From an uncultured Pseudomonadota bacterium (lineage in GTDB: Bacteria; Myxococcota_A; UBA796; SXON01), in the NCBI GenBank assembly GCA_903844155.1, contig CAIMSU010000213.1:1-46118 (forward strand): a DNA stretch of 46,118 nucleotides, given 5' to 3'. Below, piece after piece: positions 8,582-44,905 of this stretch. A program made the translations under genes and the position numbers. The notes under the pieces are model-generated. The model searched no databases. It was not told the DNA's origin and saw nothing but the letters and a program-made list of their open reading frames with translations. Numbering within the stretch: the first letter of the stretch is position 1; every line of letters begins with the position of its first letter.

Positions 8582-10899
8582 CACTCCGCCGTCCCCCCGC
8601 CCGAAAACACCTTCCTTCCCGTCAAATACTGCAGCAGCGCGATCGACATCAGCGAATTCTGCGTCTCGCCGCCCTCGCCCGACCCGCCACTGGATCCGCC
8701 GATGTACACATCCGGGATCAACTTCAGCTTGTTCGTGGCGATCTTCTCGACGACCTGGATCTGCCCGAAGATCTCGTTCCCCATCGCGTTGACCTGCAAC
8801 TTGTAGCTCTCGGCCGTCGACTTTCCCTGCTCCAGGATGACGAGCGCCTGCGCCAGGCCCTTCTTCTCGATGGCCTCCGCGTCCGCGAGCGCGTTCACCC
8901 GCGTGGCCTCCGCCGATGCCCCAGCCGTCACTTTCGTCGCCTTGGACGTACCTTCCGCGCGCACCTCAATGGCCCGCGAGTCGCCCATCGCTTTCTCGAT
9001 CTCGGCGTTCGCAAGGTTCTTGGAGATCTCGACCCCTCGCTCCGACTCCACGACCTTCGGCTGCATGTTCGCTTGGGCCTTGGCGTTCTCCAGCATCTTC
9101 CGCTCTTCCTGCGCCTGCTTCTGCGTGGCGAAGGTGATGCGCTCCTGCTCCGCGATCTGGCGGTCGGTGACCGTACGGGTCAGCTCGGCCGGCAGCACGA
9201 CGTCGGCGATCATCGTGTCCTTGGACTCGATGTGGTGGACCCGAAGCACGCTTTGGAGGTGCTCTTTCGCGTGCGCCTGCAGCTCGGCCCGCTTCGTGTA
9301 AAGGTCCAGCGCCTTGACCGACTGCGCCGAGTTGCGGAAGTGCGACGAGATCGCCGGCTCCAGCACTTGCGAGATCATGTTGTCGACCGAGCCAAGGTTG
9401 GCGACGACCTTGGGCGCATCCGCCATCGCGATGTGGATGATGACGCTCACGTCCATCGACACATTGAAGGCGTCCGCCGTCCGCAGCGTGATCGTCTTCA
9501 GCTCACTATCCAGTTTGTGCGCCGAGTTCTGGCTGTCTGCCCAGTTGAGCAGGATCTGCGTCGTCGGCACCTTGTCGACCTTGCACACCTTGGTGTTGAG
9601 CGGGTGCCGGCCCGGCCCGAGCGGCTCGGCCCAGATCCCGCGCTTGCCGTTCGCCACGATCTTCGCGTTCACGTTGGAGTCCGTGGTGTCCTCGCCATCG
9701 TCGCCCACAAAGCTCGTGATGACCGCGCACTCGCCGATCTTGACCTCCACCATCGGCACGGTCTCGATCGTCGCAAACCACGGGTTGATCGCGTAGTTAC
9801 CGGAGCGCAGGACGGGGATCTGCAGGCCCTTCTGCCCGCCCGCTGCCAGGAACGCCGCCGCGTTCTGGAAGTTGTTGTGCACGTCCAACCCGAGCTCCTC
9901 GGCCGCGATCTCCTTCGCCTTCATGATCGGCCGGCCTTCAAGCACGGTCACGATGCCGATGGAGTCCGCCGAGATGTTCGTCCACGGGACGACCGCCTTG
10001 ATCACGAAAAGCGCTGTGTTGATGCGGTATGTTCCGGGCATCAGCACGTCGAGTTGGTGACCCTTCTGGCCGCCGTTCGTGATGAACGCCTGCCCGTTCT
10101 CGAAGTTGGAGTGCCCCTCGATCTTGCGGCTCAACAGCGACCCTTCCGGGATGCGCGCGCCGTCCATCGCCGTGATGAGCCCGATGTGCCCGTTCGGGAT
10201 GACCGTGACCGGGCGCTTCTCGACCTTGAAAAGTGCGGTGTTGATGCGGTAGTTTCCGGGCGGAAGCACGCGAATCTGAGGCCCTTTTTGTCCGCCGTTG
10301 CGCAAGAAGGCGTCCGCGTCCTGGAACGCGTCGCACTCCACGGGATCCGCGAAGATCCGCCCCATCGCGCTCGGCCCGCCCGCGACGGCTTCGACAACGC
10401 CAACCTGCGTTTCCGTGATCAGCACCGCGTCCTCGATCTTGACGGTGAACAGGTGCGGGTTGATCTGGTACTCGCCCGGCGGCAGGATGGAGAGCTGCGG
10501 CCCCTTCTCGCCGCCGTTCTTCAGAAAGGCTTCGCCATCCTGGAAGATGTTGCAATCCACGGTCCTGGCGAAGAACTGGCCCGGCGGGATGGGAAGGCCG
10601 GTGATCGCCTGGACGATCCCGATCTGTGTCTCGTTGATCGAGAAGAACTTGTGCTTCTCGGTCTTGTAGATGAACGGCACGAAGAAGTGGACACCCGGCC
10701 CGAGGGTGCGCGCCTGCACGCCCACCTCGGTTGCCAGCGCGATCGTGCGCCCGTCCGCCATCGTCTTGCCAAACCATCGGCGTTCCATGGTGATGAATTG
10801 CTCACCGCCAACGATCGCGATGCTCTGGTAGAGCAGCACGAGCAGGCAGAAACCAAAGAACACCAGCAGCGGAACGCTGGCGAGGATGAGGTCGAACAT
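8581..10899 (-). CDS. SPFH/flotillin-like protein with four tandem repeat modules
   Basis: A 772-residue protein with an N-terminal membrane segment (about 3-30). Four modules of 73-78 residues follow, each marked by GGxKG (near 129, 202, 276 and 354) and an L-x-P/S-G-x-Y-x-I-N stretch. After this come an SPFH/band-7 region (about 385-580), a charged coiled-coil with KQAQEERKMLENAKAQANMQ, and a Gly-Ser-rich tail. SPFH proteins build ring or cage scaffolds on membranes; the coiled coil is the usual assembly part. The repeat modules are unusual for flotillins and faintly recall the repeats before the SPFH-like shoulder of the major vault protein, which is only an analogy. Start at the ATG at 10899. 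Confidence 0.85.
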   Translation of the reverse strand: MFDLILASVPLLVFFGFCLLVLLYQSIAIVGGEQFITMERRWFGKTMADGRTIALATEVGVQARTLGPGVHFFVPFIYKTEKHKFFSINETQIGIVQAITGLPIPPGQFFARTVDCNIFQDGEAFLKNGGEKGPQLSILPPGEYQINPHLFTVKIEDAVLITETQVGVVEAVAGGPSAMGRIFADPVECDAFQDADAFLRNGGQKGPQIRVLPPGNYRINTALFKVEKRPVTVIPNGHIGLITAMDGARIPEGSLLSRKIEGHSNFENGQAFITNGGQKGHQLDVLMPGTYRINTALFVIKAVVPWTNISADSIGIVTVLEGRPIMKAKEIAAEELGLDVHNNFQNAAAFLAAGGQKGLQIPVLRSGNYAINPWFATIETVPMVEVKIGECAVITSFVGDDGEDTTDSNVNAKIVANGKRGIWAEPLGPGRHPLNTKVCKVDKVPTTQILLNWADSQNSAHKLDSELKTITLRTADAFNVSMDVSVIIHIAMADAPKVVANLGSVDNMISQVLEPAISSHFRNSAQSVKALDLYTKRAELQAHAKEHLQSVLRVHHIESKDTMIADVVLPAELTRTVTDRQIAEQERITFATQKQAQEERKMLENAKAQANMQPKVVESERGVEISKNLANAEIEKAMGDSRAIEVRAEGTSKATKVTAGASAEATRVNALADAEAIEKKGLAQALVILEQGKSTAESYKLQVNAMGNEIFGQIQVVEKIATNKLKLIPDVYIGGSSGGSGEGGETQNSLMSIALLQYLTGRKVFSGGGTAE

Positions 10900-10952
10900 G
10901 GGTCAATCCGGGGGACGGAAGTAGATAATCGCGCTCGGGCCGGGACTCAAGC

Positions 10953-11038
10953 CTTTTCGGGGCGGCTCGCTCGGCCCCTCTCGGGTGCCAGGGTCCGCTG
11001 TGGAACGCCGCGCAGCACCCCCGCGGGGTCCCGGGCGT
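10953..11038. repeat. interspersed intergenic repeat, copy A
   Basis: One of four related stretches in this window. It shares the blocks GGGCGGCTCGCTCG-like near the start, TGGAACGCCGCG in the middle and CCCCGCG(GGGTC) at the end with copies at 19671-19745, 28555-28650 and 44002-44077. GGGGC and GCCCC can fold back in the first half. It lies between the SPFH gene start and the end of the next minus-strand gene. Confidence 0.65.
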
Positions 11039-11043
11039 GGCCG

Positions 11044-11754
11044 TCAGCCAGGGTGTAGCTCCAGGCAGCGATCGATCAACACCGGCGCTGCGCTCACCAG
11101 CTTCGCGAGCGTTGCCCCCGCGTCGGTGCCCGCCTGGAACTGGTCGTGGCAATCCGCGCGCGGCGAGTTCGACCAGACACTCAGCGTCACGTCCACCCAA
11201 GTCGGCGACCACTGGGTCGTCGTGACCCCGAGCGCGACGTCTACGTGGATCGCAAGCTCGCCCGGATCGCAAAGGCCAAGGTTCTCGGCCAGGTGGTCGA
11301 CGTCCGGTTGGAGCGTCTGAGCGTAGAACGCCTTCCGCGCCGCGCCGGTCAGCACAAAGTGCCCGTCCCAGTCGCATCCAAGCAGGGGCTCCTGAAGATG
11401 CGGCGGATAGTCCTCATCACAGCCCGCCCCGAGGTCGGCAGACCGGGTGACCTCCGAGGCACACCACGCCCTCGCCGCGTGCGCCCACGCAACCAGCGCC
11501 GCGACCACCGGCGCCTTCGGAGACCCCTCCCCTGGATCCTCCTCCTCCGCCTCTCTTGGCGTCCTTGGCGCTCTTGGCGGTTCAACCTCTTGTGTTTCCT
11601 CGACGCAGCCGCCAACCAGAACCACTGCCCCCGCACCAGGCACGGCCAGAGGGGAGGGGAGGCAGATTGAACCGCCAAGGCCGCCAAGTGCGCCAAGGAA
11701 ACACGAGGAAGAAGATGAGAAAGACAGGACCACCGCACGACGACGGCGCGTCAT
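11044..11754 (-). CDS. hypothetical secreted or lipoprotein whose N-terminus overlaps an inverted repeat
   Basis: About 236 residues from the ATG at 11754, which overlaps the GxxExxY stop as ATGA. The first residues (MTRRRRAVVLSF) look like a signal peptide; an alternative GTG at 11643 would start just before a lipobox-like VLVGGC. The segment between is encoded by an inverted pair of AACCGCCAAG-type repeats and is low in complexity (PPRAPRTPREAEEEDPG). The remaining ~150 residues are a Cys-bearing domain (CDEDYPPH, CDWDGHF, CDPGEL, CHDQF) that I do not recognise. The repeat seems to have been inserted in or near the 5' end of the gene without breaking the frame. Confidence 0.55.
   Translation of the reverse strand: MTRRRRAVVLSFSSSSSCFLGALGGLGGSICLPSPLAVPGAGAVVLVGGCVEETQEVEPPRAPRTPREAEEEDPGEGSPKAPVVAALVAWAHAARAWCASEVTRSADLGAGCDEDYPPHLQEPLLGCDWDGHFVLTGAARKAFYAQTLQPDVDHLAENLGLCDPGELAIHVDVALGVTTTQWSPTWVDVTLSVWSNSPRADCHDQFQAGTDAGATLAKLVSAAPVLIDRCLELHPG
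11553..11602 (-). repeat. AACCGCCAAG repeat, arm 1 (inverted pair)
   Basis: On the minus strand this reads TTGAACCGCCAAGAGCGCCAAGGACGCCAAG, i.e. three CGCCAAG units at a 9- to 11-base period. It faces an inverted copy at 11667-11708. This short repeat is known, from memory, to occur with GxxExxY genes in many unrelated bacteria. Confidence 0.8.
11667..11708 (+). repeat. AACCGCCAAG repeat, arm 2 (inverted pair)
   Basis: Reads TTGAACCGCCAAGGCCGCCAAG followed by TGCGCCAAGGAAACACGAGG, the same unit as arm 1 in the opposite direction, 64 bp away. The two arms could form a hairpin in DNA or RNA. It begins 43 bases past the GxxExxY stop. Confidence 0.8.
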
Positions 11755-19303: not shown

Positions 19304-19597
19304 ATGAACAAGAAAGAACTCGTCGCGAAGCTCGCCAAGAACACCGGCCTCTCCCAGGCCAAGGCCGCCGAGGTCGTCAACTGCCTCTTTGACGCCGACC
19401 CCGGCCACGGCATCATCGCCGTCGAGCTGGACGGCGGCCGCAAGGTCACCATCCCCGGCTTCGGCACGTTCGGCACCAAGAAGCGCGCCGCCCGCACCGG
19501 CACGAACCCGGCGAACGGCAAGAAGATCGCCATCGCCGCGAAGTCCTACGCGTTCTTCAAGCCGGGCAAGACCCTGCGCGAGCGCGTCGCGGTCTGA
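19304..19597 (+). CDS. hup: HU-family DNA-binding protein
   Basis: A 97-residue histone-like protein. MNKKELVAKLAKNTGLSQAK, the GFGTF turn (GFGTFGTKKRAARTGTNP) and the C-terminal AFFKPGKTLRERV match HU beta-arm and body regions. The arm has TNPANGKK. Slightly longer than typical HU because of a short insertion near FDADPGHGIIAVELDGG. Start ATG 19304 with GGAG about 9 bases upstream, and a terminator at 19621-19677. Nucleoid packing protein. Confidence 0.95.
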   Translation: MNKKELVAKLAKNTGLSQAKAAEVVNCLFDADPGHGIIAVELDGGRKVTIPGFGTFGTKKRAARTGTNPANGKKIAIAAKSYAFFKPGKTLRERVAV

Positions 19598-19620: not shown

Positions 19621-19677
19621 GCCCCGACCCCAGGCCCCCGGCTCAGCTTCGGCTGGGTCGGGGGTTTGGCCTTTTTC
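19621..19677 (+). terminator. rho-independent terminator of hup
   Basis: CCCGACC (about 19624-19630) pairs with GGTCGGG (19656-19662) and CAGC-TTCG-GCTG forms the tip of the stem. It is followed by TTTGGCCTTTTTCT. It leads straight into repeat copy D. Confidence 0.75.
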
Positions 19678-19745
19678 TGGCGGCCTTGCTCGGCCCCGCA
19701 CCCTTCAAAGTCGCCTGCGGAACGGCCGTTTGCCCCGCCGCCGTT
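19671..19745. repeat. interspersed intergenic repeat, copy D
   Basis: The most divergent of the four copies: CTTTTTCTGGCGGCCTTGCTCGG, then TGCGGAACGGCCG and CCCCGCCGCCG. Directly after the hup terminator. Confidence 0.5.
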
Positions 19746-19767
19746 CCAGGGCCTGGCGCGCGCGTCG

Positions 19768-28536: not shown

Positions 28537-28554
28537 TCGGGCGTAGCGCGGGTT

Positions 28555-28650
28555 TTCTCGATCTTCTGGGCGGCTTGCTCGATCCCGCCCCGCTCAAGGG
28601 CTCGCGCCGAGCGCTCGCGCACGGAACGCCGCGTTGTCCCTGCGCCGATC
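28555..28650. repeat. interspersed intergenic repeat, copy B
   Basis: CTTCTGGGCGGCTTGCTCGATC, then the fold-back partner CCCGCCCC, a variable middle, CACGGAACGCCGCGTTGTCC and CTGCGCC. Located 18 bases past the PHP gene stop, and shows a perfect GGAACGCCGCGT core. Confidence 0.65.
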
Positions 28651-28706
28651 CCGAACATGCTGTTCAGCCCGCAACCGTGCTATCTTGACCCGATCTGGAG
28701 TCCCTC

Positions 28707-42806: not shown

Positions 42807-42891
42807 CCGGCATCCTCAAACTGCCTCTATCCGGTTGATGCCTTTCCCGGCCATGATAGCCGCGCGGCCACCCCCCAAATCCGAGGCTTTC

Positions 42892-43986
<1,095 letters not shown>

Positions 43987-44001
43987 CACGGGTCGTTGAG
44001 G

Positions 44002-44077
44002 GTTCTTTGGGCGGCTCGCCCCTCGTGGGGGCGGGCCACCGATCGCCCGTGGAACGCCGCGTCGCCCCCGCGCGGGG
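44002..44077. repeat. interspersed intergenic repeat, copy C
   Basis: TTCTTTGGGCGGCTCGCCCC, a fold-back TCGTGGGGGCGGG, then CGTGGAACGCCGCGTCGCCC and CCGCGCGGGGTCA. Fills the gap between the convergent lipoprotein and rsmI genes. Confidence 0.65.
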
Positions 44078-44905
44078 TCACGCGCGCAGGGCCATGACCC
44101 TCGCGTAGATTTCACGCCGTGGAAGTCCGGTTTCGGCCGCAACCACGTCCCGCACCCGGCGCGCGTCTATGCCCTCCGCGAGCAGCGCTCGGATGCGCGC
44201 GTCTGCGTCGATGGTCACGGTTTCCCCACGTCCTACGAGGAGAACTACCTCCCCGCGCGTCTCAGCACCGAGCTGTTGGAGCGCCGCTGAGGCCCGCCCC
44301 GAGATCCACTGCTCGTGCGCCTTTGTGAGGTTGCGCGCCACAACGACCGCCCGCTCCGGCCAGATCGCCGCGATGATCCTCAAGGTCTCCGCCAGCCGAC
44401 GCGGCGACTCGTAGAAGATCAAGGTGCCGTCGAACCCCGCGAGCGTCGCGAGCTGCGCCCGGAGCGCCGCCTCCCCCGCTGGCAGAAACCCGCCGAACGC
44501 AAACTGATCCGTCGGAAGCCCGCTTCCAACCAGCGCCGCGATGAGCGCGCACGCGCCCGGCAGCACGTCCACCGTGAACCCCGCCGCACGAGCGCGCGCG
44601 ACGACCCGGAAACCCGGGTCCGAGATCAGCGGCGTCCCAGCGTCCGAGACCAGGCCAACGCTCCGGCCGGCGTGCAGGTGCGCGAGGATCTCGTCCGCGC
44701 GCGCCTCCTCGTTGTGATCGTGGCAGCTCCGCGTCGACCGCGCGATGCCCAGCGTCCGCAGCAGGTCGGCGGTGACGCGAGTGTCCTCGGCGTACAACTC
44801 GTCCACGTCGCGGAGCATCCGGAGCGCTCGGAGCGTGATGTCGTCGGGGTCCCCGATGGGCGTCGGGATGATCACCAGGCGCCCGGCGGGACCGGGCTCG
44901 CTCAA
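44078..44905 (-). CDS. rsmI: 16S rRNA (cytidine-1402-2'-O)-methyltransferase
   Basis: About 275 residues from TTG at 44905. VIIPTPIGDPDDITLRAL is the N-terminal SAM-methylase motif, and SDAGTPLISDPG and LPGACALIAALVGSGLPTD are RsmI signatures, followed by YESPRR. Modifies C1402 of 16S rRNA in the decoding centre. The TTG overlaps the exbD stop as TTGA. Confidence 0.93.
   Translation of the reverse strand: MSEPGPAGRLVIIPTPIGDPDDITLRALRMLRDVDELYAEDTRVTADLLRTLGIARSTRSCHDHNEEARADEILAHLHAGRSVGLVSDAGTPLISDPGFRVVARARAAGFTVDVLPGACALIAALVGSGLPTDQFAFGGFLPAGEAALRAQLATLAGFDGTLIFYESPRRLAETLRIIAAIWPERAVVVARNLTKAHEQWISGRASAALQQLGAETRGEVVLLVGRGETVTIDADARIRALLAEGIDARRVRDVVAAETGLPRREIYARVMALRA

Follow-up and report, generated by a model that had tools for sequence, protein, structure and literature searches.

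A lineage-specific family of interspersed intergenic repeats with compensated complementary arms in an uncultured bacterial genus

The genome analyzed here, that of an uncultured bacterium, contains a real family of interspersed intergenic repeats that is specific to its lineage and is represented by four copies in the 46,118-nt stretch of DNA under study (hereafter, the window). Directly observed are the copy number of the element, its intergenic placement, its absence at orthologous sites of congeners, and the complementarity of its two arms, which is retained in variants with compensatory changes. Taken together, the element is probably a small non-autonomous, ERIC-like mobile repeat, with arms recognized by an enzyme acting in trans and with copies surviving mainly downstream of genes.

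All four copies proposed in the initial annotation were recovered on the plus strand, at 51.6 to 79.1 bits, with a profile (R1) built from 29 copies. Copy 1 (10936–11035; 79.1 bits; core 10960–11011), which contains the exact bipartite pattern described below, carries the arms GCGGC (10962–10966) and GCCGC (11007–11011) and lies between two minus-strand genes, one starting at 10899 and the other ending at 11044. In line with the suggested location at gene ends, copies 2, 3, and 4 follow plus-strand genes that end at about 19597, 28536, and 43986, respectively. Copy 2 (19655–19752; 55.0 bits; core 19679–19728), apparent from the sequence, belongs to the compensated type B, with the arms CGGCC (19681–19685) and GGCCG (19724–19728). 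The preceding plus-strand gene encodes an HU/IHF-like DNA-binding protein (19304–19597; PF00216, E=3e-27) and has its own intrinsic terminator (19630–19669, plus strand; 18-pair stem and CCTTTTT), which is located upstream of copy 2 and outside the element, with the start of the copy corresponding to the T-tract of this terminator. Copy 3 (28544–28656; 51.6 bits; exact pattern) has a core (28568–28632) that an internal insertion has extended beyond the usual length, with the arms GCGGC at 28570–28574 and GCCGC at 28628–28632, and copy 4 (43985–44084; 65.5 bits; core 44009–44060; arms GCGGC at 44011–44015 and GCCGC at 44056–44060) is matched by an empty site in a congener. The blocks common to the copies are as initially described, with the copy at 19671 representing a subtype in which both blocks are changed together (GGCGGCC/GGCCG). 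Four copies in 46 kb constitute a local excess over the genome average of about 0.65 per 46 kb. As a separate observation, the Asp-Thr repeat (GACACGGATACCGACACC; window positions 43038–43104) of the gene at 42853–43986 has many occurrences in all four congeners.

The genome-wide statistics combine profile searches, pattern searches, and about 0.5 Mb of loci. Searches with blastn using the window copies identified 28 places in the own genome, and the R1 profile detected at least 114 copies (E<=0.01) in this 8.13-Mb genome and at least 9 in the congener G003, both numbers being lower bounds among 150 candidates scored. Matches to the exact pattern GGGCGGCT-N26..50-GAACGCCGC number 83 in the own genome, compared with a single match for a reversed control pattern, and among the congeners, 27 in G003, one in G001, and none in G002 and G004. 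The genome-wide family anticipated in the initial annotation is accordingly borne out, with G003 as the only relative that has copies in quantity; in this congener, a diverged form of the family is present at roughly 25 places. Among the remaining genomes of the order (63 in total) and of the phylum (379 in total), exact matches numbered 0 to 2, similar to the control. A wide distribution was considered and rejected, with the matches outside the genus being chance-like, except perhaps for single copies in G014 and G001, the candidates in which have weak profile scores (19–22 bits). A viral origin was likewise set aside, with one exact pattern match among 2.9 million contigs.

The element spans about 100 bp. 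In all but a few of the aligned copies, its constrained core measures 49 to 54 bp, and the consensus is CGCGGGgttTTcgGCaTCCTTT-GGGCGGCTCGCTCGGCCC-cgCGCCG-nTCCAG-...-cGTGGAACGCCGC-gTTGcCCC-GCGCCG. In the own genome, the core is bordered on either side by about 22 nt of weaker conservation; the copies in G003 have mostly unconserved flanks and a diverged center and keep both end blocks, although these copies were chosen by exact end blocks, so that the conservation of the blocks partly reflects selection of the sample. Within the element, the sequence CGCCGnTCC is present twice as a direct repeat, the second time about 40 nt further downstream, and this repetition accounts for the strongest couplings outside the arms (columns 48–88 and 49–89), which do not signify pairing. 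A coding repeat was rejected, given that the core lengths of 49 to 54 bp are not multiples of three and that the copies shift frame. The mean identity between copies is about 65 to 68% and, thus, gives no sign of very recent bursts.

The defining feature of the family is the pair of arms, GCGGC...GCCGC, located about 40 bp apart, in which all five base pairs can be formed in each of the 105 aligned copies. Double-sided changes were observed at three of the five arm pairs, in 4 to 5 copies each; this covariation was matched by none of 500 shuffles, and when the partner was slid by one to three columns as a control, pairing fell to 30 to 66%. Type B arms, CGGCC/GGCCG, are found in seven copies (the window copy at 19671 and those in loci L173, L174, L177, and L195–L197), and a third arm type, GCGCC/GGCGC, occurs in L168. 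Because the type B copies may share ancestry, the number of compensating events is about two rather than 13. Arms were read in 113 copies, those in L031 and L120 being standard on inspection. The outer position is pairable, as G-T or G-C, in 102 of the 105 copies; further helices (outer GCGCGGG/CCCGCGC, inner TCC/GGA, and a central hairpin) found no covariation support in the same alignment. The small hairpin previously attributed to the first block needs correcting in that the partner of GGGCGGC is the second block (GCCGC), not the first block itself. The copies show no excess of folding over dinucleotide shuffles on either strand (mean z +0.17 and −0.22), which implies that arm pairing alone gives no stable hairpin; the median predicted probability of an arm pair is 0.12. 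The arms are, in short, strictly matched without a classical stable hairpin.

To place the copies relative to genes, we relied on a simple dicodon caller, with both the calls and the background taken from element-bearing loci only, which makes the statistics approximate. Outside the called genes lie 71 of the 83 exact copies. Both neighbors are known for 62 copies, of which 20 are located between convergent genes, 31 between tandem genes, and 11 between divergent genes. The element is enriched in the convergent gaps (odds ratio 3.4 compared with other gaps of at least 60 nt, p=0.0025), and in tandem gaps, the stop codon is the nearer gene boundary for 24 of 31 copies (p=0.003); among the 62 copies, no significant depletion from divergent gaps was detected. 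The proposed location at gene ends is thus supported, and neither a paucity of copies nor a lack of enrichment at gene ends was encountered. The tandem gaps show no orientation bias (15 sense and 16 antisense). REPs have been reported to occupy similar locations, on the downstream side of genes and between convergent genes (PMC3733652).

Placing the window by synteny against the congeners G001 to G004 made the orthologous sites comparable for copies 2, 3, and 4, the neighborhood of copy 1 being different in the congeners. At copy 4, the convergent gap measures 91 nt in the own genome vs. 26 nt in G001; at copy 3, G003 has an intergenic region that is shorter by roughly 95 nt; and at copy 2, G001 and G003 retain a terminator and lack the element. 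The R1 profile had no match over 116 kb of syntenic DNA from the four congeners. Because the congeners lack the element at all three testable sites, its insertion in the present lineage appears to be the simplest account of these comparisons. Outside genes, the congeners are too diverged to delimit the exact ends of the element or target-site duplications. Comparison with 14 examined loci of G003 revealed no insertion sites in common with the own genome. A conserved aminotransferase gene found near copies in L011 and L046 was evaluated as a common locus and rejected, the element being at different positions relative to the gene. L011 also contains, adjacent to an aminotransferase gene, domain V of a group II intron (9896–9993; RF00029, 43.9 bits).

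Six copies, found via searches with the left half of the element, carry a nested near-perfect palindrome, CATACGAAAACGGACGACGTCAC..., of 73 nt (in L199, 33 nt), which always occupies one internal site in one orientation (L190:2927–3109, L191:3067–3248, L192:151–333, L194:2922–3103, L200:1591–1772, and L199:1850–1991). The nested palindromes are flanked by copy-specific complementary 6-mers, with 34 of 36 pairs formed, a result equaled by 4 of 720 permutations. Identity is 94% among the full-length palindromes, compared with 76% among their host elements and 68% among ordinary copies. These composites could have arisen either through amplification of one composite or through repeated insertion of the palindrome at one site. 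L179 contains an apparent remnant of a palindrome-bearing copy, and the 73-nt palindrome is also found free, outside the element (L018:3493–3563, L014:3572–3641, L199:3274–3339, and L193:2514–2576). Other repeats were encountered in the 564 kb of own DNA: related short palindromes, TATCAAAACCGACGACGTCAGTTTTGATA, with about 34 matches; a dispersed repeat, GACCGGGGTCAAAAGTCGC, often paired about 31 nt apart, with 19 matches (for instance, L009:2756–3121, L018:3143–3174, and L024:4571–6017); and a recurrent motif, GATACGAATTACGGGATGAGnATTGTCAC, with 8 matches (including L100:549, 1989, and 4033; L193:3132; L198:2669; and L020:318). A bolder reading of the family, which we regard as rather doubtful, is that the identity of the repeat is set by the complementarity of the arms and not by their sequence, such that subtypes whose arms differ but match coexist in one genome, and that the center would serve as a fixed docking site for a second palindromic repeat, each insert being clamped by a copy-specific stem, with movement effected by a non-RAYT enzyme that recognizes the fold.

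The initial annotation labeled the repeat REP- or terminator-like and suggested looking for an associated RAYT. The own genome indeed encodes two RAYT-like Y1_Tnp proteins (L034:1207–2298 and L035:1438–2280), both with weak C-terminal helix-turn-helix matches, and that of L034 matches NCBIfam REP_Tyr_transpos (E=2.5e-10, below the family cut-off); together with the REP-like placement, these genes are what speaks for a true REP/REPIN family moved by the RAYT of this genome, a Y1 transposase. Nevertheless, the 12-kb stretches around the two genes (L142 and L143) contain no confident copy, and the distributions do not coincide across the genus, with no Y1_Tnp match in G003, which has copies, and Y1_Tnp matches in G002 and G004, which have none. 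The REP tags are also missing: at the two sides of the helix foot, GTAG was found in 2 and 1 and CGTC in 10 and 11 of the 105 copies. With neither tag nor stable palindrome, and with a core of 49 to 54 bp that exceeds the REP length of 20 to 40 bp, the element does not qualify as a REP, and we rejected the RAYT-REP assignment, giving this explanation little credence. No autonomous partner or other mobiliser for the element was found.

The compensated pairing of the arms, the pairable outer position, and the proximity of stop codons would also fit a structured RNA maintained by host selection at each locus, be it a 3'-UTR element, a bidirectional terminator, or a stand-alone RNA. We consider this unlikely, in view of the balanced orientation in tandem gaps, the lack of excess folding on both strands, the lack of a U-tract, the orthologous congener loci that do without the element, and the Rfam search, which gave no match at the gathering threshold and none credible at E<=5. 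The terminator label fares no better, the sole good terminator near a copy being that of the HU/IHF-like gene. Invariant inverted half-sites at a near-fixed spacing, with few exceptions, combined with weak predicted folding, are what a bipartite site for a dimeric DNA-binding protein, nucleoid-associated or regulatory, multiplied in this lineage would look like. Yet, both half-sites change together in type B and in L168, which a single protein is not expected to tolerate, conservation reaches well past the arms and is asymmetric, and the copies are inserted DNA rather than sites evolved in place; a protein-binding site hence seems improbable.

Under the favored interpretation of a mobile repeat, the arms would stay complementary because a putative trans-acting transposase or recombinase must recognize them; what it would read is either a single strand folded back on a short stem or two inverted half-sites. 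Copies would persist mainly where they are harmless, on the downstream side of genes and beside terminators. A later role for the host, such as at mRNA 3' ends or as a barrier between convergent genes, would be secondary and hypothetical.

Several known systems share features with this family. Like ERIC and other RU elements, it is a noncoding intergenic repeat of about 100 bp, present in many copies and MITE-like, with no mobiliser assigned to it here. ERIC is a largely palindromic unit and is not known to have a mobiliser. The present element, in contrast, is complementary in two 5-bp arms only and, as a whole, folds no better than chance. The enterobacterial RU elements, ERIC among them, are intergenic and have unit lengths of 127, 168, and 103 bp (PMC2759123, PMC2229807). 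With the REP/REPIN families and their RAYT (TnpA-REP) proteins (PMC3733652, PMC8266576, PMC3116915), the element shares a high extragenic copy number, a preference for convergent gaps and for places near the 3' ends of genes, and complementary arms, but it differs in lacking the GTAG/CGTC tag, the stable palindrome, copies at RAYT-like genes, and co-occurrence with Y1 across the genus. It resembles the MITEs of DNA transposons in being short and non-autonomous, with lineage-specific insertions and short inverted arms, whereas no parent transposon or long terminal inverted repeats and, in comparison with the diverged gaps of the congeners, no target-site duplication were identified for it. Integron attC sites similarly combine two complementary arms with a variable center able to hold a long extra hairpin; visual inspection of the 105 aligned copies revealed no conserved AAC/GTT box positions, and the copies are dispersed in both orientations, without cassette arrays. 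A gene-end repeat, then, should not by default be called a REP or a terminator. This previously undescribed family functions like the ERIC/REP-type repeats, outside the RAYT-associated REPs, and adds to a class with poorly explained spread a dispersed-repeat family that is nearly confined to one uncultured genus; with the RAYT hallmarks missing, the arms compensated, and the empty sites mapped, it offers a clean case for asking which other enzymes move such repeats.
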